64,000 nt of DNA from Desulfonatronovibrio hydrogenovorans DSM 9292 (GTDB lineage: Bacteria; Desulfobacterota; Desulfovibrionia; Desulfovibrionales; Desulfonatronovibrionaceae), in the NCBI RefSeq assembly GCF_000686525.1, contig NZ_JMKT01000009.1:310001-374000 (forward strand). Reading direction: 5' to 3'. The position numbers and the translations under genes are program-made. Positions 6,543-16,642 of this stretch are shown here, one piece after another (position 1 is the first letter of the stretch; each line of letters starts with the position of its first letter). The notes beneath the pieces were generated by a model that made no database searches, had not been told where the DNA came from, and was given only the letters and a program-made list of their open reading frames with translations.

Positions 6543-6702
6543 TTTAATGGACAATGACTTGGCGATTTAGTCTGCCAGTTCAAGGTTCTGGCCATCACTA
6601 GCATGGATGGCTCTAACCTTCAGCTTGCAACTCCTGTCGCCTTTCTGACTTGCAGATACTTATCAAATACTTGATCAACAGCCAATGACCCAGGAAAAAG
6701 CC

Positions 6703-8919
6703 ATGCAGGTAGACACCAGCGCTTCCAACAACAGCCAGAATAACCTCAAGGAAGAAAGAAAAGAATCCACCAGGCAGGCAGCCCAGGACATCGTAATGAT
6801 GACCGAGGCCGGAGCTAGAGATCCTAAAAATATTATAGCCAAGTCACTGATTATTGTCATATGTCTGGCCTGGTCCGGATATCAGCTGATGATCGCTTAT
6901 GATCCCATTAATTCGCATATTGCCAGGGCCTGGCATCTGGCCTTTGCCATCTGTCTGGCTTTTCTGGCCTACCCGGCTTACAAGCAACACAGTCCTCCCA
7001 TCTGGGTCAACTGGACCTCCAAGGTCATTCCCAGCTTTACCAGACGTTCCAACCGAAGATACATTCCAATATACGATATCATTTTTGCAATCCTGGGAGC
7101 AGGGGCAGCCCTTTATATCTGGTGGGATTATGATAACCTGGTGTACAGACAGGGCATGCCCAACACTACTGACATAATCATGGGCATTATCCTGATCATT
7201 CTCCTTCTGGAAGCAGCCAGAAGGTCCCTTGGTCCGGCTCTGGCTATCCTGGCCCTGATTTTTCTATCCTATAACTTTATTGGCCCTTATTTGCCGGAGG
7301 TTCTCCGACACAGGGGGCTGCCCATGGATTTCATCATCAGCGACATGTATCTGAGTACCACCGGGATCTTCGGTGTTCCCTTGGGAGTGGCAACAGATTT
7401 TGTGTTTCTTTTTGTACTCTTTGGGGCACTGCTGGATAAGGCCGGGGGAGGCAAATATTTTATTGACGTAGCCTTTTCAGCTCTGGGTACATACCGCGGC
7501 GGTCCAGCCAAGGCAGCGGTCCTGGCCTCTGGAATGACAGGCATGGTGTCTGGCTCATCCATTGCCAATACCGTAACCACTGGTACCTTTACCATTCCTC
7601 TCATGAAAAGAGTCGGCTTTCCACCCCACAAGGCTGCTGCCGTGGAAGTCGCTGCCTCTACCAATGGCCAGCTCATGCCGCCCATCATGGGCGCAGCCGC
7701 CTTTATCATGGCCGAAATCATCGGCATGCCCTATCTGGATGTCATCAGGGCAGCCCTTATTCCAGCTCTTCTGTCCTACCTGACACTTTTTTATGTAGTA
7801 CATCTGGAAGCCCTGAAGCTTGGGCTCAAGGCCATTCCCAAGAATGAACTGCCCAAATTTTTAAAAACTCTCCTTCGAGGGTGTCACTTCATCATACCCC
7901 TGGCCTTTCTCCTCACCTACCTGGTGATCTTCAGGCGCTCGCCCATTGCCTCAGCCATGATGGCCATCCAGTCACTGCTGGTCATAATGATCATTCAAAG
8001 GCCCATCATTGCCTTTCTAAGCCTTGGTGCCCATAAAAGAGCCGGAACCCTGGATCCTAATATCAATTTAGCAGCTTTTATCGGGAAATCATTTCTGGCT
8101 GGAATCCAGGATATCTGGTCCGGACTCATAAGCGGTGCCAGAAACATGATTTCTGTTGGCGTGGCAACTGCCACTGCCGGAATTATCGTGGGAGTAGTGA
8201 CCATCACCGGTCTGGTTGGCAGGTTCATTAATGTAATTGATACTCTGGCCATGGGCAATGTTGTCCTGATGCTCATCCTGACTGCCATGACCAGTCTGAT
8301 CCTGGGTATGGGCATGCCCACCACGGCCAACTATATCATCATGGCCACCCTGACCGCACCGGTCATCGTGCATTTAGGCGCAGACGCCGGTCTGGTGTTT
8401 CCCTTGATTGCAGCCCATTTATTCGTGTTCTACTATGGTATCCTGGCTGATGACACACCGCCGGTAGGTCTGGCCGCCTATGCCGGTGCTGCCATTGCCA
8501 GGACCGACCCCATCAAGACCGGTATCCAGGGATTCACCTATGATCTGCGCACCGCCATCCTGCCCTTTATTTTTCTGTTCAATACGGAACTGCTCATGAT
8601 AAGCGGAGTAACAGAGACAGGCAGACCTATCTGGATTGACAACTACTTTTATATCAGCTGGATATTCTTTTCCGGCCTCATTGCCATGTTCTCCTTTGCC
8701 TCAGCCCTGCAGGGCTTTCTGGTAACCAGATGTTCATGGATTCTAAGGATCGTTCTTCTGTTCAACACCATTACGGTGCTTAGACCAGGGATATTTGAAT
8801 CCTACGTACCCATGGGCAGGGTCGGACTCCAGATTACAGGGGTGATGATTTACTTTGCAATTTTCTTCTATCAGAAATATAAACTAAAGAAACAGAGGCT
8901 ACTTTTTCAGAAAAGCTAG
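6703..8919 (+). CDS. TRAP transporter fused permease (DctQ-DctM type)
   Basis: A large polytopic membrane protein (738 aa from this start) with an N-terminal hydrophilic extension of about 45 aa, a few helices equivalent to DctQ, and a long DctM-like segment with GMTGMVSGSSIANTVTTG, ASTNGQLMPPIMGAAAFIMA and ILGMGMPTTANYI. These are the hairpin-loop motifs of the transport core of TAXI-associated fused permeases. It couples ion gradients to uptake of the solute delivered by the upstream binding protein. The ATG at 6703 has AGGA 7 nt upstream; an in-frame ATG at 6685 has no ribosome site. UspA follows after 17 nt. Confidence 0.92.
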   Translation: MQVDTSASNNSQNNLKEERKESTRQAAQDIVMMTEAGARDPKNIIAKSLIIVICLAWSGYQLMIAYDPINSHIARAWHLAFAICLAFLAYPAYKQHSPPIWVNWTSKVIPSFTRRSNRRYIPIYDIIFAILGAGAALYIWWDYDNLVYRQGMPNTTDIIMGIILIILLLEAARRSLGPALAILALIFLSYNFIGPYLPEVLRHRGLPMDFIISDMYLSTTGIFGVPLGVATDFVFLFVLFGALLDKAGGGKYFIDVAFSALGTYRGGPAKAAVLASGMTGMVSGSSIANTVTTGTFTIPLMKRVGFPPHKAAAVEVAASTNGQLMPPIMGAAAFIMAEIIGMPYLDVIRAALIPALLSYLTLFYVVHLEALKLGLKAIPKNELPKFLKTLLRGCHFIIPLAFLLTYLVIFRRSPIASAMMAIQSLLVIMIIQRPIIAFLSLGAHKRAGTLDPNINLAAFIGKSFLAGIQDIWSGLISGARNMISVGVATATAGIIVGVVTITGLVGRFINVIDTLAMGNVVLMLILTAMTSLILGMGMPTTANYIIMATLTAPVIVHLGADAGLVFPLIAAHLFVFYYGILADDTPPVGLAAYAGAAIARTDPIKTGIQGFTYDLRTAILPFIFLFNTELLMISGVTETGRPIWIDNYFYISWIFFSGLIAMFSFASALQGFLVTRCSWILRIVLLFNTITVLRPGIFESYVPMGRVGLQITGVMIYFAIFFYQKYKLKKQRLLFQKS

Positions 8920-8936
8920 ATTTTGGAGGAAAACTA

Positions 8937-9401
8937 ATGTTTAAACACATCCTGATTCCCATTGACCTGCAAGAGGAAGATGAACGCCCCCGTACCCTGG
9001 CTCTTCATAAGGCCATAGAACTATGCAGGGTTTATGATGCCCAGCTCCATGTATTAACGGTAGTCCCTGATGTTGGAATGCCCATTGTCGGTTACTACTT
9101 CCCTACTGAAACCGAGGATAAGATTGTCTCAGAGGCGGAAACTTACCTGCATGAGCTGGTCAACAAGAATATTCCGGATGACATCAATGTTCAGCACCTG
9201 GTGGCCCAGGGTACGGTCTACAGAAGGATCCTTAAAATGGCTGAAAAGGTTAATGCCGACTTGATCATCATGCCTGCCCAGAGGATGAAGATTCAGGACT
9301 ATTTGATCGGATCCAATGCCTCCAGAGTTGTCCGCTATGCCAAATGCTCGGTCCTTGTGGTCAGGTCCGAATTTGATGACCGATTCGTGTGTGTGAGGTA
9401 A
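8937..9401 (+). CDS. UspA-family universal stress protein, TRAP-associated
   Basis: The 154-aa protein begins MFKHILIPIDLQEEDE, the beta1 strand and ATP-site Asp of the Usp fold, and ends IGSNASRVVRYAKCSVLVVRS, the final helix-strand. The usual nucleotide-binding glycine run is degraded (PAQRMKIQDYLIGS), so ATP binding is uncertain. A GGAGG site lies just before the ATG, 17 nt after the permease. Usp proteins encoded with TRAP systems, such as TeaD with TeaABC in Halomonas, regulate transport; a similar accessory role is inferred. Confidence 0.88.
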   Translation: MFKHILIPIDLQEEDERPRTLALHKAIELCRVYDAQLHVLTVVPDVGMPIVGYYFPTETEDKIVSEAETYLHELVNKNIPDDINVQHLVAQGTVYRRILKMAEKVNADLIIMPAQRMKIQDYLIGSNASRVVRYAKCSVLVVRSEFDDRFVCVR

Positions 9402-9447
9402 TAATTCACAAGACTGAAAACCTCCCGGGTCCAGGTAAAAAGACTCC

Positions 9448-9480
9448 CAAGAGAACCCCTTTTCAGGGGTTCTCTTGTTT
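9448..9480 (+). terminator. Intrinsic terminator of the TAXI-TRAP-uspA operon
   Basis: CAAGAGAACCCC pairs with GGGGTTCTCTTG (12 bp) across a short T-rich loop and is followed by TTT. It lies 46 nt after the uspA stop. Confidence 0.8.
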
Positions 9481-9613
9481 AAGCCAATTAAAAGATCTGT
9501 TACCAGGCCCTGCCTGGATTTTTTTTCAGATTCATTGTAAATGACATCAGACTGTAAACTTATTTGGTTATAAGCCATTAACATTTTACAACCCAGACCC
9601 TTGAGAGAAGAAC

Positions 9614-10048
9614 ATGATTGCTAAAAAACAGATACTTTTCCTGTGCACAGGCAACTCATGCCGAAGCCAGATGGCAGAGGCCTGGACCAATCATCTGCAT
9701 GGTGATAAGCTGCAGGCCTATTCTGCAGGAGTTGCCAAGAGCAAAGTAGACCCCAGGGCCATCCAGGTAATGGCTGAACAGGGAATCGATATCTCTTCCA
9801 GCAGGTCCAAGCTGGTAGAGGAGCTGGAAAAAACTGATTTTGACTATGTCATTACCCTCTGCGATCATGCCAGAGAAAGCTGCCCTCTTTTTCCCGGACC
9901 GACCAAAAAGAAACATGTGGGCTTTGATGATCCCCCTTTTCTGGCGAAAAATGCCCCCAGCGAAGAAGAAGCCCTTGGTTACTACAGAAGAGTCAGGGAT
10001 GAGATCAGGCAGTTTGTGACAAACCTCCCTCAAACCCTGGAACAATAA
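9614..10048 (+). CDS. arsC: Arsenate reductase, low-molecular-weight phosphatase type (ArsC)
   Basis: The 144-aa protein opens with the phosphatase loop LFLCTGNSCRSQMAEA (CX5R) of the thioredoxin-coupled ArsC/LMW-PTP family. A second cysteine pair lies in TLCDHARESCPLFPG, the redox Cys region that distinguishes arsenate reductases from plain phosphatases. FDDPPF holds the general acid Asp-Pro. It would reduce As(V) to As(III) in the cytoplasm. It stands alone here; the nearest candidate arsenite exporter in the window is at 60422-61396. No ArsR gene is adjacent. Confidence 0.88.
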   Translation: MIAKKQILFLCTGNSCRSQMAEAWTNHLHGDKLQAYSAGVAKSKVDPRAIQVMAEQGIDISSSRSKLVEELEKTDFDYVITLCDHARESCPLFPGPTKKKHVGFDDPPFLAKNAPSEEEALGYYRRVRDEIRQFVTNLPQTLEQ

Positions 10049-10188: not shown

Positions 10189-10752
10189 ATGGATAAGAAA
10201 AAGAAAAAAATCAACCAGGTCATGACCAGCAAGGAGACTTCGGACTTTTTGAAACAGCTGGCCTCCGGGATCCAGGGAGGTGAACTGGTTTTAGACGGTG
10301 AATCCTTTGAATGGGACGAAATAAAGAAAATCAAGATCACCTTTAAAAATCAGCAGAGTCGGGTCATGGTCAAGACCAAGCTGAAAACCGAACCAGCAAC
10401 TGATGTGGAGATGGACTTTGATCTTGATGATGAGCCGGTTGAACCAGAGGTTGATCAAAAAACTGACCTTCCCTATAAAAAACTGAAAAAAAGAATGAAA
10501 CAGACCTTGAAGACCGTTCATCAGAGCCTGAAGCTAAACCAGATGCCCCGTCATCAGGATCTGCTGACTTTGTTGGAGGACTCCAGGGCAATGACCAGTT
10601 TTCAAGGCTACGGTGACGAGTACTATCCTGAATTTCTGGAAATTGTTCAGCAGCTAGAAGAGAGCCACAAATTAAATGACCTTCAAGCCCTGAATACTGC
10701 TTTTAAAAATTTTGTCGGGCAGATGAAACACTGCCATGACCGTTTCAAGTGA
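10189..10752 (+). CDS. XXXCH-domain protein of a GAK-type system
   Basis: This 187-aa, highly charged, soluble protein begins with a lysine-rich MDKKKKK. Residues 13-66 follow the amphi-Trp-like pattern (helix with alternating Leu, GGELVLDG turn, alternating beta strands), but no Trp occupies the end of the last strand. An acidic linker (about 72-92) leads to a helical C-terminal half ending MKHCHDRFK, with Cys182-His183 matching the conserved CH pair for which the XXXCH family is named. No enzymatic motif is visible. AAGGA precedes the ATG by about 8 nt. It is the first gene of a seven-gene same-strand run to 16642. The function is unknown; the CH pair could bind metal or accept a modification (inference). 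Confidence 0.75.
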   Translation: MDKKKKKINQVMTSKETSDFLKQLASGIQGGELVLDGESFEWDEIKKIKITFKNQQSRVMVKTKLKTEPATDVEMDFDLDDEPVEPEVDQKTDLPYKKLKKRMKQTLKTVHQSLKLNQMPRHQDLLTLLEDSRAMTSFQGYGDEYYPEFLEIVQQLEESHKLNDLQALNTAFKNFVGQMKHCHDRFK

Positions 10753-10853
10753 ACATAAACGTCCTGCAGTATCCCTTGAAAAATTTCTGTCCGGAACACT
10801 TGTTTCAAATTGTTTAAAACCCGCTACTGACATGTTAGTTGATGAGGCCGAAT

Positions 10854-12038
10854 ATGCCTTTAAAAGCCAAAAATATGGAACTGGTCAAGCCGGAGGAGAA
10901 GCTCAAAAAGCTGTCTCCAGAAACCCTGAACCGGGACATTAACCAGGATGACCTGGACGCATTTAGCCTCATAACCTGCCTTGCTCTCAGTCCTGATCAG
11001 GTTAAAAGAGTCTGTACACCCCTTGAAGTCTTTCCTGAACAGAAATCGGTTCTGGCCGTACACTGGCATCCTGAATATGTTCCTATGGACCTGATCAGGC
11101 AAAGGATTGAATCGACCTTCCCCCAAAAAAAACAGGAGCTTATCATACCCACCCAGCACAACCAGCTGATGAGCTATGATGGCCGGTACTCAGGGGTTGA
11201 AGTGGATTGCTATTCCAGGGGGTTCAAACGCAAAGTCCAGCTTCTCCTGCACTTTAAAAGTGACAAGCTGGAACAGGCCAATACCCTGAAATCCATGCTG
11301 GAGCACACTTTTGAATACAGGTCAGGCCAGCTGTTCCAGCTCATGGAGACCATAACCGATCCCAAATGGGAAGATTATGTGCAGCTGGCTGTAGAGGGGA
11401 CCGGAGTCAGTGATGCCGTGGTTGAATTTGCCAGGATCCAGACCTGGAAACTCATGACTCTGCTCAAAGAGAATGAATCCCCGGCCAGTAAAGAGATCAT
11501 TAAAAACAGGCTGATCAAGGATTTTATTGATGCCCAGAGACATCTTTACCCGGAAAACTTTATCAACAAGGTCCAGGTCTTTATCAAGTCGATAAAAAAA
11601 ATCGTCAAGGCCAACTTCAATCTGACCTATTTTTACCGGACCTCGGAAGTAATCGAAGAAGCTAGGGGTATCGGGGCCGGGATAATTGTTCCTCACCCTG
11701 AACAGTTCTGGCCGATTCTGCTCTGTGAATACGACATTGATGGATACGAAGTCTGGAACCCCCAGTCTCAGGAATATACCGAATTTTTGGTCAATGTAAT
11801 CAATCGTCAGAACAGGGCCAGAGGAACCGGGCGTAAGCGGCTTCTGCTTTTCATGGGAGACGATACCCATCTGTCCGAAAAAATTAAAGACTCCATCAGT
11901 ATTGAGGCTTCAAAATACTATCGGGACATTGGAGTTCAGCCTGCCTGGGACGACCTGTCCATTAGAAAATCCCTGATCATAGGGAATTTCAGCAGGGAAA
12001 AAATGATCGAGGAATACAAATCCCGGCTGGAAGGATGA
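10854..12038 (+). CDS. PHP-domain-like protein of the GAK-type locus
   Basis: I do not recognise a named family for this 394-aa soluble protein. It carries spaced motifs like a PHP metallophosphoesterase: HWHPE at 70-74, GVEVDCYSRGFKRKVQLLLH at 114-133, IVPHPEQFW at 278-286, DIDGYEVWN at 294-302 and GDDTH at 335-339. These correspond in order to PHP motifs built from His, Glu and Asp ligands of a metal cluster. The first motif (HWH rather than DLHxH) is divergent. The ATG at 10854 is chosen because GAGG lies 6 nt upstream; TTG 10839 and ATG 10842 lack a ribosome site. A phosphoesterase role opposing the neighbouring kinase is an inference from motifs only. Confidence 0.65.
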   Translation: MPLKAKNMELVKPEEKLKKLSPETLNRDINQDDLDAFSLITCLALSPDQVKRVCTPLEVFPEQKSVLAVHWHPEYVPMDLIRQRIESTFPQKKQELIIPTQHNQLMSYDGRYSGVEVDCYSRGFKRKVQLLLHFKSDKLEQANTLKSMLEHTFEYRSGQLFQLMETITDPKWEDYVQLAVEGTGVSDAVVEFARIQTWKLMTLLKENESPASKEIIKNRLIKDFIDAQRHLYPENFINKVQVFIKSIKKIVKANFNLTYFYRTSEVIEEARGIGAGIIVPHPEQFWPILLCEYDIDGYEVWNPQSQEYTEFLVNVINRQNRARGTGRKRLLLFMGDDTHLSEKIKDSISIEASKYYRDIGVQPAWDDLSIRKSLIIGNFSREKMIEEYKSRLEG

Positions 12039-12088: not shown

Positions 12089-12376
12089 ATGCCCAGAGAA
12101 AAAAAAATCTCATTGGAATCCCTTCAGGATTCGGAATCGATCTGCAAATATCTTGATGCCCTCAAAGACGGATTCAGGAACGGCACAATCAATTTCTCTC
12201 ACCAGGACAACAAGTTGACCCTTCATCCCCATGGTTTGATCAAGTTCGAAATCAAGGCCAAGCACAAGCAGGGCGAGGTCAAGCTTCATCTCAGGTTCAG
12301 ATGGGAGGAGGATAATGACCAAAATTTCGATATCAACCCTTTGGCTGATGATGCTGCACCGGCGCAGGACAAGTAA
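12089..12376 (+). CDS. Amphi-Trp domain protein 1
   Basis: The 95-aa protein follows the amphi-Trp layout: an amphipathic helix (SESICKYLDALKDGF), a G-T-I-N-F turn-strand, then alternating beta strands ending HLRFRW with Trp72 at the characteristic position, and a short acidic tail. It aligns by eye with the second amphi-Trp protein at 16232-16642 and less well with the N-terminus of the XXXCH protein. AAGGAA lies about 8 nt before the ATG, and the next gene begins 2 nt after the stop. No catalytic residues are evident; a binding, adaptor or carrier role is likely but unproven. Confidence 0.8.
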   Translation: MPREKKISLESLQDSESICKYLDALKDGFRNGTINFSHQDNKLTLHPHGLIKFEIKAKHKQGEVKLHLRFRWEEDNDQNFDINPLADDAAPAQDK

Positions 12377-12378
12377 CC

Positions 12379-14025
12379 ATGCAGTATTTTAAAGAATTGG
12401 AGGAAAAAATCCACTTCATGGTCCTGGAGGTAACCAGGCAGCTTGAAAACACCCTGAAGATTATCCATGATCCTGAATCAGAGCTGGTGGAAAAGGTCAA
12501 GTCCAGAGATGACCACATCGACAACTACAAATCAGTTATTGAAAATATCTGTTTTTCCCGGATCCATGGCCATGAAAACCTGCACAAGCAGAGGGTTGAC
12601 TTTATCCGGGCCGCCAACATTATCAGCAATAACCTGGAGAGAATCAGCGACTATGCAGTGAATATTGTTGGCCAGTTAAGCTACCTGGAAGATATTCACG
12701 CTGTCAGGGACTACAGGTTCAGCCCCTACTTCGACCATATGCTTGCTTCCCTGGAAAGCCTGGTCCCTGCCCTTTTCAAACGTGATCTGAACCTGGCTCT
12801 AAGAATCTGCAAGGCGGAATTTCTCATAGACAAACTTTATAAAAAGAGCTTTGATATTATTATTGAAGAACTCAATTACGATAAAAACAAGCACGACCTT
12901 GTCACCTGTTTGTTTATTTTCAGGTATCTGGAAAGGATGGGGGATTCTCTTCTGAATATCGGTGAAGCCATCATCTTTTCTGTATTCGGAGAAAAACTCA
13001 AGATCCATCAATATCAGGCCCTGAAAGAAAGCCTTGATTCCATCAACACGGACATCCCTATTGATGAGGTGGATTTTGAGTCCATTTGGGAATCAAGATC
13101 CGGATGTCGTATTGGAAAAATCATGGACCCTGTCAAGCGTGGAGGGCGTGGTGTCCTGTTCAAGGAGGGAAAGCTCAAGAAAATAGCCAGGGAAAAGGAA
13201 AACCTTGAAATCTGGAGGGAAATCTTTCCCAGCCTGGTACCCATGGTATTCAGCTACAATCAAAGCAAAAACAACGCTTCCATGCTCCTGGAATTTCTGC
13301 AGGGATGCTCTTTTCAGGAAACCCTGGCCATCCAGGATCAGGAAATTCAGGATAACTCCTTTTTTCTGCTCAAGGAAACCCTGAGCCTTATTTGGGAGAA
13401 AACCATGAAGCCTGGGCAAGTCAATGCCAAGTTCATTGCCCAGCTCGTGGACAGGGTCGACGACGTGCTCATGATTCATCATGAATTCGATTTTTCTGAG
13501 GCCAGGGTTGGTTCATTATTAACTCCCTCTCTGAACAGCGTCATTGAGCTACTCACTGAAATTGAAAACAGCATCCATGCCCCTTTCGCCGTATTCATTC
13601 ACGGTGATTTCAATTCCAACAACATCATCTGCAACCAGAAAGAACAGCAGATATACTTTATTGATGTCCATCGCTCCTGTTATAATGATTATGTCCAGGA
13701 TATATCAGTTTTTCTGGTCTCCAATTTCCGGCAACCCAATTTTGACTCCCAGTTCAGGAACAATATCAATAAGCTCAATGAAAATATGTTCAAGTTTGCC
13801 CTGGAATTCGCCCAAGAAAATGATGATCATCTTTTCAAGGCAAGGCTGGCCCTGGGCCTGATCCGGTCCTTTTTCACATCCACCAGGTTTGAACTGAATC
13901 GGGAATTTGCTGGAAGCATGTATCAACGGGCAGTATATCTGGCAGAAAAGCTCATCGCCCATCACGGCAGCCCATGGGAGGAATTTGACTTTCCACCGGA
14001 TGTTTTCCGATACACTTCTTTCTAA
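12379..14025 (+). CDS. PhoU domain fused to aminoglycoside-phosphotransferase-like kinase
   Basis: Residues 1-210 form two PhoU-type helical repeats with the metal-site motifs NLERISDYAVNI (85-96) and RYLERMGDSLLNIGE (183-197). Residues about 245-525 look like an APH/choline-kinase fold: a Lys-rich strand GVLFKEGKLKK (possible ATP Lys), LLEFLQG hinge, catalytic loop FIHGDFNSNN (H408, D410, N415) and YFIDVHR (D429, metal Asp). PhoU proteins couple to phosphate sensing; APH-like kinases phosphorylate small molecules or proteins. The two together in one 548-aa chain are unusual. It sits where a GAK system would be expected to have its HprK-related kinase, which is not seen here. Substrate unknown. 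Confidence 0.8.
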   Translation: MQYFKELEEKIHFMVLEVTRQLENTLKIIHDPESELVEKVKSRDDHIDNYKSVIENICFSRIHGHENLHKQRVDFIRAANIISNNLERISDYAVNIVGQLSYLEDIHAVRDYRFSPYFDHMLASLESLVPALFKRDLNLALRICKAEFLIDKLYKKSFDIIIEELNYDKNKHDLVTCLFIFRYLERMGDSLLNIGEAIIFSVFGEKLKIHQYQALKESLDSINTDIPIDEVDFESIWESRSGCRIGKIMDPVKRGGRGVLFKEGKLKKIAREKENLEIWREIFPSLVPMVFSYNQSKNNASMLLEFLQGCSFQETLAIQDQEIQDNSFFLLKETLSLIWEKTMKPGQVNAKFIAQLVDRVDDVLMIHHEFDFSEARVGSLLTPSLNSVIELLTEIENSIHAPFAVFIHGDFNSNNIICNQKEQQIYFIDVHRSCYNDYVQDISVFLVSNFRQPNFDSQFRNNINKLNENMFKFALEFAQENDDHLFKARLALGLIRSFFTSTRFELNREFAGSMYQRAVYLAEKLIAHHGSPWEEFDFPPDVFRYTSF

Positions 14026-14056: not shown

Positions 14057-14938
14057 ATGAGCAACTTGAAAATCGCAGTAATTGGAAACCCTGGAAGCTG
14101 GTCAACAGAAAAACTGGCCAATGCCATTGCCAGAAAAACAGGTTTCAGATGCGTGGTTGAAATGTCTGAGGTGACCATGGATTTAAACCAGAGGTCACTT
14201 TTTCACAATGATCTGGATCTGGCTTCTCTGGATGGACTGGTCATCAAAAAGATTGGCCCTGTTTACTCTCCTGACATGTTTAACAGGCTCGAAATACTTA
14301 GATTTTTCTGCAAGCTAGGAATACCTGTCTACTCCCGGCCTCAAAAAATAATGGCTGCCATCAACCGGCTCAGCTGTACTGTTACCCTGCAAAAGGGAGA
14401 CATCCCCATGCCCCCGACTGTCATCACCGAAAATATTGATCAGGCTGTAAACACGGTCAAAAAATTTGGGAAAGCAGTCTTCAAGCCCCTTTATTCCAGC
14501 AAGGCAAGGGGGATGATGGTTGTGGAAGATTACCAGCAGTGTACTTCCATGATTGAAAATTTTCAGACATCAGGCAATACTACCATGTACATCCAGAAAA
14601 TGGTCAATATTCCGGGTCAAGACCTGGGGGTTGCTTTTCTTGGTGGCAGGTACGTGGGAACCTATGCCCGAAAACAGGGAACCTCCTGGAACACATGCAC
14701 ATCCAGTGGGGGAAGGTATGAACCCTTTGATCCTGGACCAGAAATAATCGACCTGGCCAGAAAGGCCCAGGACCTGTTCGGACTGGACTTCACCTGTGTA
14801 GACGTAGTAGAAACTGAAGATGGTCCCATGGTCTTCGAAGTTTCGGCCTTTGGAGGTTTCAGGGGCCTCAGCGAAGCCTGCGGCATTGATGCAGCTGAGC
14901 TTTATGCAGATCATGTCGTCAGCGACATTCTGTCCTGA
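14057..14938 (+). CDS. ATP-grasp (RimK-like) enzyme of a GAK-type system
   Basis: The 293-aa protein has an N-terminal Rossmann-like IAVIGNPGSW followed by the ATP-grasp core: MAAINRLSCTVTLQKGDIPM (DK..T-type RimK entry), AVFKPLYSSKARGM (Lys143 and glycine loop), and VDVV/MVFEVSAFGGFRG (248-270), where the metal-binding Glu261 is kept but the usual ExN is ExS. Enzymes of this class ligate a carboxylate to an amine through an acyl phosphate, for example RimK or CofF/MptN adding glutamate. ATG 14057 starts the conserved fold; an earlier in-frame ATG at 13907 would overlap the previous gene by 119 nt. The substrate is unknown. Confidence 0.82.
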   Translation: MSNLKIAVIGNPGSWSTEKLANAIARKTGFRCVVEMSEVTMDLNQRSLFHNDLDLASLDGLVIKKIGPVYSPDMFNRLEILRFFCKLGIPVYSRPQKIMAAINRLSCTVTLQKGDIPMPPTVITENIDQAVNTVKKFGKAVFKPLYSSKARGMMVVEDYQQCTSMIENFQTSGNTTMYIQKMVNIPGQDLGVAFLGGRYVGTYARKQGTSWNTCTSSGGRYEPFDPGPEIIDLARKAQDLFGLDFTCVDVVETEDGPMVFEVSAFGGFRGLSEACGIDAAELYADHVVSDILS

Positions 14939-14957: not shown

Positions 14958-14990
14958 ATGGACAGTTTTAAAACTCACTTGGTCCCATGA
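14958..14990 (+). CDS. Ten-codon leader ORF coupled to the CofD-like gene
   Basis: A mini-ORF (MDSFKTHLVP, then TGA) begins at ATG 14958, 5 nt after a strong GGAGG (14948-14952). Its stop TGA (14988-14990) overlaps the ATG of the CofD-like gene as ATGA. The CofD-like gene has no ribosome site of its own directly upstream, so ribosomes finishing the mini-ORF probably restart on it. This is read directly from sequence; actual translation is unproven. Confidence 0.5.
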   Translation: MDSFKTHLVP

Positions 14991-16180
14991 AAAAAATTGT
15001 CATCACCCGCAGTGCAGCTATCCCTGACCGACTCAGGCTGGCCAGGTACTTCAAGAATCCGGAACTTGGCCCAAAAATCCTTTTTTTCAGTGGCGGGACA
15101 GCCCTTAACTCTCTGAGCAGATCCCTTCTCAAATACACCCACAACTCCATCCACTTGGTCACCCCCTTTGACTCAGGCGGAAGTTCGGCCAAGTTGCGCA
15201 AGGCCTTTAACATGCTGGCCGTGGGTGATCTCCGGAGCAGGCTCATGGCCCTGGCTGACCAGACAGTCAAAGGAAATCCGGAAATTTTCAGGCTGTTTGC
15301 CTATCGATTTCCCAGGGACGAGGACAACAAAGAACTCAAAGACAAACTGTCCAAAATGGCCAAGGGTGAACACTCCCTGGTCAGAAGCGTCCACGATCCC
15401 ATGCGCAAGATCATCCGTTCCCATCTGGAAATATTCAAATCTGCCATGCCCGAAGACTTTGATCTTAGAGGGGCAAGTATCGGCAATTTGATCCTGGCTT
15501 CAGGCTACTTCACCAGCAACAGACACATTGACCCGGTCATCTTCATCTTTTCCAAGCTGGCCGAAGTCAGGGGTATTGTCCGTCCCATAATGAACACCAG
15601 GATGCATCTGGTGGCCCGCCTTGAAGATGGATCAATGGTCAAGGGTCAACATATGCTTACAGGCAAGGAAGTGCCACCCATAACCTCTCCGGTCAGGGAA
15701 CTCTTCCTCAGCAAGAAGCTGAACAAACCTGTCCGGGCCAATCCAGCAGTCAGAGACAAAATCAAAAAACTAATTCTTGATGCCGAGCTGATCTGCTATC
15801 CCATGGGTAGTTTTTACTCCAGCATCATAGCCAATATCCTTCCTGCCGGAGTCGGTGCAGCAGTTTCTCTCAATCATTGCCCTAAAGTGTATGTCCCCAA
15901 TACCGGTCACGACCCGGAACAGGTCGGCACCACCCTTGATCAGAGGGTTGAAATTCTCATCACCTACCTTCAGAAAAGCTGTCCAGCACCTGTGAGGGTT
16001 GACAGTCTCCTGAACTTCGTAGTCATAGACAGGGACAAATCCCTGTACCAGGGGGGAGTTGACGTCCAAAAAATAAAAAAACTCGGAGTTGAAGTCCTGG
16101 AAACAACCTTGACCCAGCAGGATCAAAAACCTTATCTTACCAATCAGATGCTGATGGAAGCATTGTTTTCAATGGTCTGA
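14987..16180 (+). CDS. CofD/YvcK-like protein of a GAK-type system
   Basis: The 397-aa protein carries the nucleotide-binding signatures shared by CofD and YvcK: FFSGGTALNSLSR (33-45), TPFDSGGSSAKLRKAF (59-74) and VGDLRSRLMALAD (79-91). ICYPMGSFYSSIIANILPAG later matches the C-terminal part where YvcK proteins read GPGSLYTSIIPNLL. CofD transfers phospholactate to the deazaflavin Fo; YvcK binds UDP-sugars and controls peptidoglycan and carbon metabolism. Nothing else in the window makes F420, so a classic CofD role is unsupported. Translation probably depends on the mini-ORF that overlaps its start. It ends 51 nt before the last gene of the locus. Confidence 0.82.
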   Translation: MKKIVITRSAAIPDRLRLARYFKNPELGPKILFFSGGTALNSLSRSLLKYTHNSIHLVTPFDSGGSSAKLRKAFNMLAVGDLRSRLMALADQTVKGNPEIFRLFAYRFPRDEDNKELKDKLSKMAKGEHSLVRSVHDPMRKIIRSHLEIFKSAMPEDFDLRGASIGNLILASGYFTSNRHIDPVIFIFSKLAEVRGIVRPIMNTRMHLVARLEDGSMVKGQHMLTGKEVPPITSPVRELFLSKKLNKPVRANPAVRDKIKKLILDAELICYPMGSFYSSIIANILPAGVGAAVSLNHCPKVYVPNTGHDPEQVGTTLDQRVEILITYLQKSCPAPVRVDSLLNFVVIDRDKSLYQGGVDVQKIKKLGVEVLETTLTQQDQKPYLTNQMLMEALFSMV

Positions 16181-16231: not shown

Positions 16232-16642
16232 ATGAGTAAAAACGAAATCAAACTCAAAGGCGTTGTGGAAAAAGAAACTGCGATATCCCATCTGGAGGAT
16301 ATTCTGGAAACCATGAAACAGGGACGGATCAATATTCAGAGCAGCAAGGACACAGTAACAATAACTCCCGGACCTTTTATGGCAATGGAAATCAAAGCCA
16401 AGTCTGGAAAAGGAAAAGAAAAAATTGAAATAGAACTGTCCTGGAGGAGCGACAAGGAAATCAAGGGAGAACCGTTTGAAATCACCATAACCAGTGACGG
16501 AGATGAGGATGAACCCCGGTCATCGGCCCATTCTGAACATCCCCTGCCTGCCAGACCGGAACTCAAAACCCCGGCAACCTCAGCTCCCAGCATTGAACTG
16601 CAGGATAAATCGGAAAAAGAAACCGGACCCGACAAGTCATAA
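16232..16642 (+). CDS. Amphi-Trp domain protein 2
   Basis: The 136-aa protein has the amphi-Trp domain at residues about 10-75: helix ETAISHLEDILETMKQ, strand RINIQSS and the closing strand KIEIELSW with Trp71. A low-complexity, Pro/Ser/Glu-rich tail of about 55 residues follows and is absent from its paralogue at 12089. GGAGAG precedes the ATG. It is the last gene before the terminator at 16652. The disordered tail might be the part that is modified or bound by the ATP-grasp or kinase products; that is speculation. Confidence 0.8.
   Translation: MSKNEIKLKGVVEKETAISHLEDILETMKQGRINIQSSKDTVTITPGPFMAMEIKAKSGKGKEKIEIELSWRSDKEIKGEPFEITITSDGDEDEPRSSAHSEHPLPARPELKTPATSAPSIELQDKSEKETGPDKS

Follow-up and report, generated by a model that had tools for sequence, protein, structure and literature searches.

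How a PhoU domain comes to share a polypeptide with a kinase, and what such a protein might do, is the question raised by one gene in the 64,000-nucleotide stretch of Desulfonatronovibrio hydrogenovorans DNA analysed here (the window). To our knowledge, decades of study of PhoU have not led to a settled biochemical output. A preliminary description of the gene had read its product as PhoU fused to an aminoglycoside phosphotransferase (APH)-like kinase, had suggested that phosphate status controls phosphorylation, and knew of no characterised precedent; in the open-access literature we likewise found no paper on a PhoU-kinase fusion, and none on the GAK system, amphi-Trp proteins or HprK-related kinases. 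Here we show that the PhoU and kinase halves are inherited together, along with the GAK ATP-grasp and amphi-Trp genes and mostly also with CofD-like and PHP-type genes. The fusion is a constant core part of the GAK gene set, which is itself conserved across many phyla, and the operon neighbours limit its possible function more than the fusion itself does. The family of each half is already known, as are the NCBIfam names for parts of the GAK operon; what appears to be undescribed, as far as the open-access literature goes, is the fusion itself, its PHP partner and the fixed position of the fusion in the GAK set.

The gene, which we designate the core GAK kinase, occupies positions 12379..14025 of the window on the + strand and encodes 548 amino acids from ATG to TAA. 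Its PhoU domain (residues 4-205; 12388..12993, +) matches PF01895 of Pfam in two stretches (E=2.8e-23) and TIGR02135 with E=4.3e-26; the latter score, 91.8 bits, lies below the equivalog cut-off of 130.25, and the fusion is therefore a PhoU-domain protein and not a PhoU orthologue. The predicted helical fold agrees with this, the closest PhoU structures in a Foldseek search of the PDB being those of Pseudomonas aeruginosa and Aquifex aeolicus (target TM 0.83). Both metal-site repeats, each with an ExxxD motif, lie where they had been proposed, at residues 85-96 (E87-x3-D91-x3-N95; 12631..12666, +) and 183-197 (E185-x3-D189-x3-N193; 12925..12969, +). Across 83 full-length orthologues these motifs are 98-100% kept, with E87 and D91 each present in 81/83 and E185 and D189 in 83/83. 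The fusion is single-copy in its genome, where the sole other match (24% identity) is a canonical PhoU; NCBIfam models identify pstS, pstC and pstA close to its gene, and the two open reading frames beside it are probably phoR and phoB, to judge from the starts of their sequences.

The kinase half (residues about 232-548; 13072..14022, +) was assigned to the APH/choline-kinase fold from profile as well as fold matches. The catalytic loop FIHGDFNSNN (residues 406-415; 13594..13623, +) and the metal-binding aspartate motif FIDVHR (residues 427-432; 13657..13674, +) stand exactly where the preliminary description had placed them. Its proviso that the catalytic residues might be degraded in orthologues is answered by their conservation: K262, E272, H408, G409, D410, N412, N415, D429 and R432 are invariant in all 83. 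The fold, the HGD...N loop, the metal aspartate and the Lys-Glu pair of APH-fold kinases are all present. Profile matches were to EcKL (5e-8), APH (2.3e-7), choline kinase (2e-6) and APH(3') (5e-10), with Pfam ranking EcKL over APH. The AlphaFold model, built from a 21-sequence alignment, has a mean pLDDT of 88 and predicts both folds in one chain, which also answers the other proviso of the preliminary description, that a PhoU bundle or a kinase fold might be missing; outside the PhoU half, Foldseek against the PDB returned APH(3')-Ia (E=3e-8, target TM up to 0.59), and the best solved relatives by sequence profile were PhoU (1.7e-19) and APH(3') (6e-5). A set of invariant arginines in the kinase half (R432, R451, R489, R496 and R503) would suit an anionic substrate.

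Full-length fusions span Thermodesulfobacteriota, Nitrospinota, Planctomycetota, Myxococcota, Alphaproteobacteria and other groups. A scan of named genomes gave 402 relatives, and the best 80, which were kept, fall into Thermodesulfobacteriota, Nitrospinota, Planctomycetota, Myxococcota, Zixibacteria, FCPU426, Eisenbacteria, Atribacteria, Actinomycetota and Lambdaproteobacteria, labels that are tentative for single bins. Within the home phylum the fusion is found in 22 of 297 genomes, one copy (G193) being cut by a contig edge; a query with the kinase half alone recovered these 22 genomes and no others, and no kinase half lacking the PhoU half was seen among the 297. An assembly or frame artefact was rejected, the fusion being contiguous in more than 80 genomes. 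One locus (L020, G046:C113) was left out of the alignment on account of two in-frame stops in its fusion gene, a TAG and a TAA, which may reflect decay, sequencing error or stop recoding. Alphaproteobacterial copies do not carry the two ExxxD motifs, with D91, N95 and E185 replaced, and keep all kinase residues. The PhoU metal site is therefore dispensable for the kinase in some lineages. In the tree these copies share a single long branch next to a Myxococcota row (the root being arbitrary), a placement suggesting that the absence of the metal site is a derived loss.

A survey of fusions and their neighbours, as the preliminary description had proposed, revealed a context that it had lacked, the GAK operon. 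In the window, genes on the same strand encode a GAK system XXXCH protein with a weak N-terminal amphi-Trp match (10189..10752, +; TIGR04358, 1.3e-24), a 399-amino-acid protein discussed below, an amphi-Trp protein whose gene immediately precedes that of the kinase (12089..12376, +; TIGR04354, 2.8e-19), a RimK/MptN-like GAK ATP-grasp enzyme (14057..14938, +; TIGR04356, 7.6e-139), a GAK CofD-like protein (14987..16180, +; TIGR04357, 5.6e-169) and a second amphi-Trp protein (16232..16642, +; TIGR04354, 6.6e-16). All 20 genomes that exceed the TIGR04356 cut-off for the GAK ATP-grasp enzyme carry the fusion, compared with only 2 of the 277 others (Fisher 4e-29, a value that overstates independence because the 297 genomes are related). 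In a set of 81 loci, whose counts describe the neighbourhood of the kinase and not the frequency of the system because the loci were picked by kinase, the fusion lies directly upstream of the ATP-grasp gene in 68, with a median gap of 16 bp, and the order, with omissions, is XXXCH-PHP-amphiTrp-kinase-grasp-HprKB-CofD-amphiTrp. The set is divided into two modules in G277, XXXCH-PHP-amphiTrp-kinase and grasp-HprKB-CofD. The most divergent copies in the phylum, in G219 and G241, are both without the ATP-grasp enzyme and both with the PHP-type gene, and G241 also has an amphi-Trp gene.

HprK-related kinase B (TIGR04355 family) is encoded inside the operon in 43 of the 81 loci; in D. hydrogenovorans its gene is on another contig (G000:C14:6940-8217), 47 bp 3' of a gene for a PhoH2-like helicase that has the same orientation (L110:5699-8217). 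A third, stand-alone amphi-Trp gene lies outside the GAK operon (L112:3684-3968, G000:C8) and follows likely Mla-type lipid-transport genes, identified by eye. On the 5' side of the operon, positions 6685-10048 of the window encode a TRAP transporter (DctM), a universal stress protein and an ArsC/low-molecular-weight phosphatase-like protein; genes for the latter two also lie upstream of GAK in Desulfonatronospira loci.

The 399-amino-acid protein (10839..12038, +) has no match in Pfam or NCBIfam and no credible sequence match in the PDB. Its model (pLDDT 88.7) gave Foldseek matches below 0.001 only to PHP proteins, the BAD_1165 phosphoesterase and RNase AM (probability 1.00, target TM 0.50), which lends moderate support to a PHP fold. 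The invariant residues, H75-W-H77, H107, E121, D123, H138, H286 and D341-D342-T-H344, resemble PHP metal ligands (HxH, E/D, H, DxH) at the level of sequence motifs. Recognised through its fold alone, the protein is probably a divergent PHP-type phosphoesterase and presumably the enzyme opposing the kinase. Its place in the kinase-grasp-HprKB operon is taken, in three Rhodobacterales plasmids, by a histidine phosphatase and a metallophosphoesterase, and one of these plasmids has a Nudix gene that overlaps the start of the kinase gene; the swap of PHP for unrelated phosphatases fits a dephosphorylation step. G218 and G262 (loci among L119, L120 and L121) have the PHP-type protein but not the fusion kinase, and the protein is therefore not an exclusive partner of the kinase. 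In G218 a gene for a 231-amino-acid PhoU homologue lies about 3 kb from the PHP gene on the same strand, and in G262 and G241 the PHP gene is directly 3' of an open reading frame that resembles, by eye, a metallo-beta-lactamase-fold hydrolase.

The reading that we favour, tentatively and with slightly less than even confidence, is that the fusion, as the constant core of the GAK operon, is a self-contained kinase gated by its PhoU half, and that a dedicated phosphoesterase opposes it. Counted in favour were both folds with their conserved residues, the joint inheritance, the gene order with its close spacing, the fold of the PHP partner and its swap for other phosphatases, the pst-linked loci and the E. 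coli precedent given below; counted against were the alphaproteobacterial loss of PhoU metal residues, the missing Pho-box enrichment and the PHP genes that occur apart from the kinase. The kinase half would use ATP to phosphorylate a small metabolite, or possibly a small operon protein, and the phosphorylated intermediate would feed the ATP-grasp ligase and the CofD-like protein. The PHP protein would take the phosphate off again, a role in which the histidine phosphatase and metallophosphoesterase would stand in for it in Alphaproteobacteria. The PhoU half would gate the kinase in cis; the counterpart in trans is free PhoU, which is modelled in Escherichia coli to act on the sensor kinase PhoR (PMC4423584). 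In that role it would, therefore, report the state of phosphate or of the Pst transporter in most lineages. A wider proposal, which we regard as quite improbable, would make the whole operon a cycle for signalling or storage that responds to phosphate. At its centre would be a phosphorylated metabolite, which the PhoU-gated kinase would make, the ATP-grasp and CofD-like enzymes would elaborate, and interchangeable phosphatases (PHP, or else the histidine phosphatase, the metallophosphoesterase and the Nudix protein of one plasmid) would erase.

Whether the PhoU half senses phosphate at all is where the main competing explanation arises, namely that it serves only for structure or dimerisation and has nothing to do with phosphate, the protein being a metabolic kinase that works constitutively in a biosynthetic pathway. 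We consider this somewhat unlikely, since near-universal metal motifs in such diverse orthologues would be needless for a mere scaffold and their loss is confined to one long branch, but that branch does combine replaced ligands with a perfect kinase. The genomic neighbourhood bears on both sides. Three loci have the operon in line with a pstB-phoU pair of the same orientation, immediately behind it in L038 and L093 and separated from it by two open reading frames in L094, but loci that adjoin pst genes are few. Pho-box control was rejected, as no enrichment was seen in 66 upstream regions of operons with a crude consensus, yet one that finds a site upstream of pstS in the own genome. The earlier claim that phosphate status controls phosphorylation is thus favoured by the metal motifs and the three pst-linked loci, and disfavoured by the missing Pho boxes, the alphaproteobacterial copies and the separate canonical PhoU in the genome; the phosphate link is plausible but unproven. 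A phoU homologue, Dde_2835, which may or may not correspond to this fusion, is mentioned in phosphate-limitation fitness data for Desulfovibrio alaskensis (PMC5193443).

The nature of the substrate separates two further alternatives from the PhoU-gated kinase-phosphoesterase pair. The substrate of HprK family members is a small protein, and the fusion could similarly be a protein kinase acting on an amphi-Trp or XXXCH protein in a phosphoprotein relay with HprK-related kinase B. The amphi-Trp gene is directly 5' of the kinase in 64 loci, the proteins encoded there having S11 in 61/64, D14 and P47 in 62/64 each and W72 in 64/64, and the G241 locus, where amphi-Trp and kinase are the only members, also counts for a relay. 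We nonetheless hold it, as a genuine alternative, to be unlikely: the fold is nearest to small-molecule kinases (APH, choline, ethanolamine), the ATP-grasp and CofD-like partners point to small-molecule or carrier chemistry, and Ser11, a possible phosphorylation site, may instead serve HprK-related kinase B. That the protein is an antibiotic-resistance phosphotransferase which gained a PhoU domain is scarcely credible and was rejected, even though APH(3')-Ia is its nearest solved kinase fold and the RefSeq names of plasmid copies go no further than 'phosphotransferase' or 'aminoglycoside phosphotransferase family protein', names that mask the GAK system. It scores far under the curated APH(3') cut-off (NF033068, 39 vs 205 bits), EcKL outscores APH in Pfam, and it is a fixed member of a multi-enzyme operon in many phyla.

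A PhoU consistently fused to a kinase permits a direct assay of PhoU state against kinase rate. The GAK system, catalogued but undescribed, gains a core kinase that had been missing from it and, as a second such part, a phosphoesterase that probably opposes this kinase, and an opaque gene list becomes a testable phosphorylation cycle in many sulfate reducers and other bacteria.

Set against known systems, the fusion is like PhoU, the Pho-regulon regulator (TIGR02135 / PF01895), in its two repeats, ExxxD motifs and fold, and differs in that a kinase is covalently joined and that it is not confined to pst operons but resides in the GAK operon. With the APH, choline kinase and EcKL families (PF01636, PF01633 and PF02958) it shares the fold, the HGDxNxxN loop, the metal aspartate, the beta3 Lys and the helix-C Glu; it departs from that superfamily by its N-terminal PhoU domain and its own invariant residues G242, R432, D437, D441, S448, R451, R489, R496 and R503. 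It lies inside the operon of the NCBIfam GAK system (TIGR04356, TIGR04357, TIGR04358, TIGR04354 and TIGR04355), yet NCBIfam has no model that the fusion matches above cut-off and none for the PHP-type protein, so that both have gone unrecognised as parts of the system. The cycle proposed for the whole operon would be a bacterial counterpart, in logic, of eukaryotic inositol-pyrophosphate phosphate sensing. The PhoU-PhoR pair of E. coli (PMC4423584) is alike in placing a kinase under the presumed control of PhoU, and differs in that PhoR is a separate histidine kinase, whereas here an APH-fold kinase would be controlled in cis.
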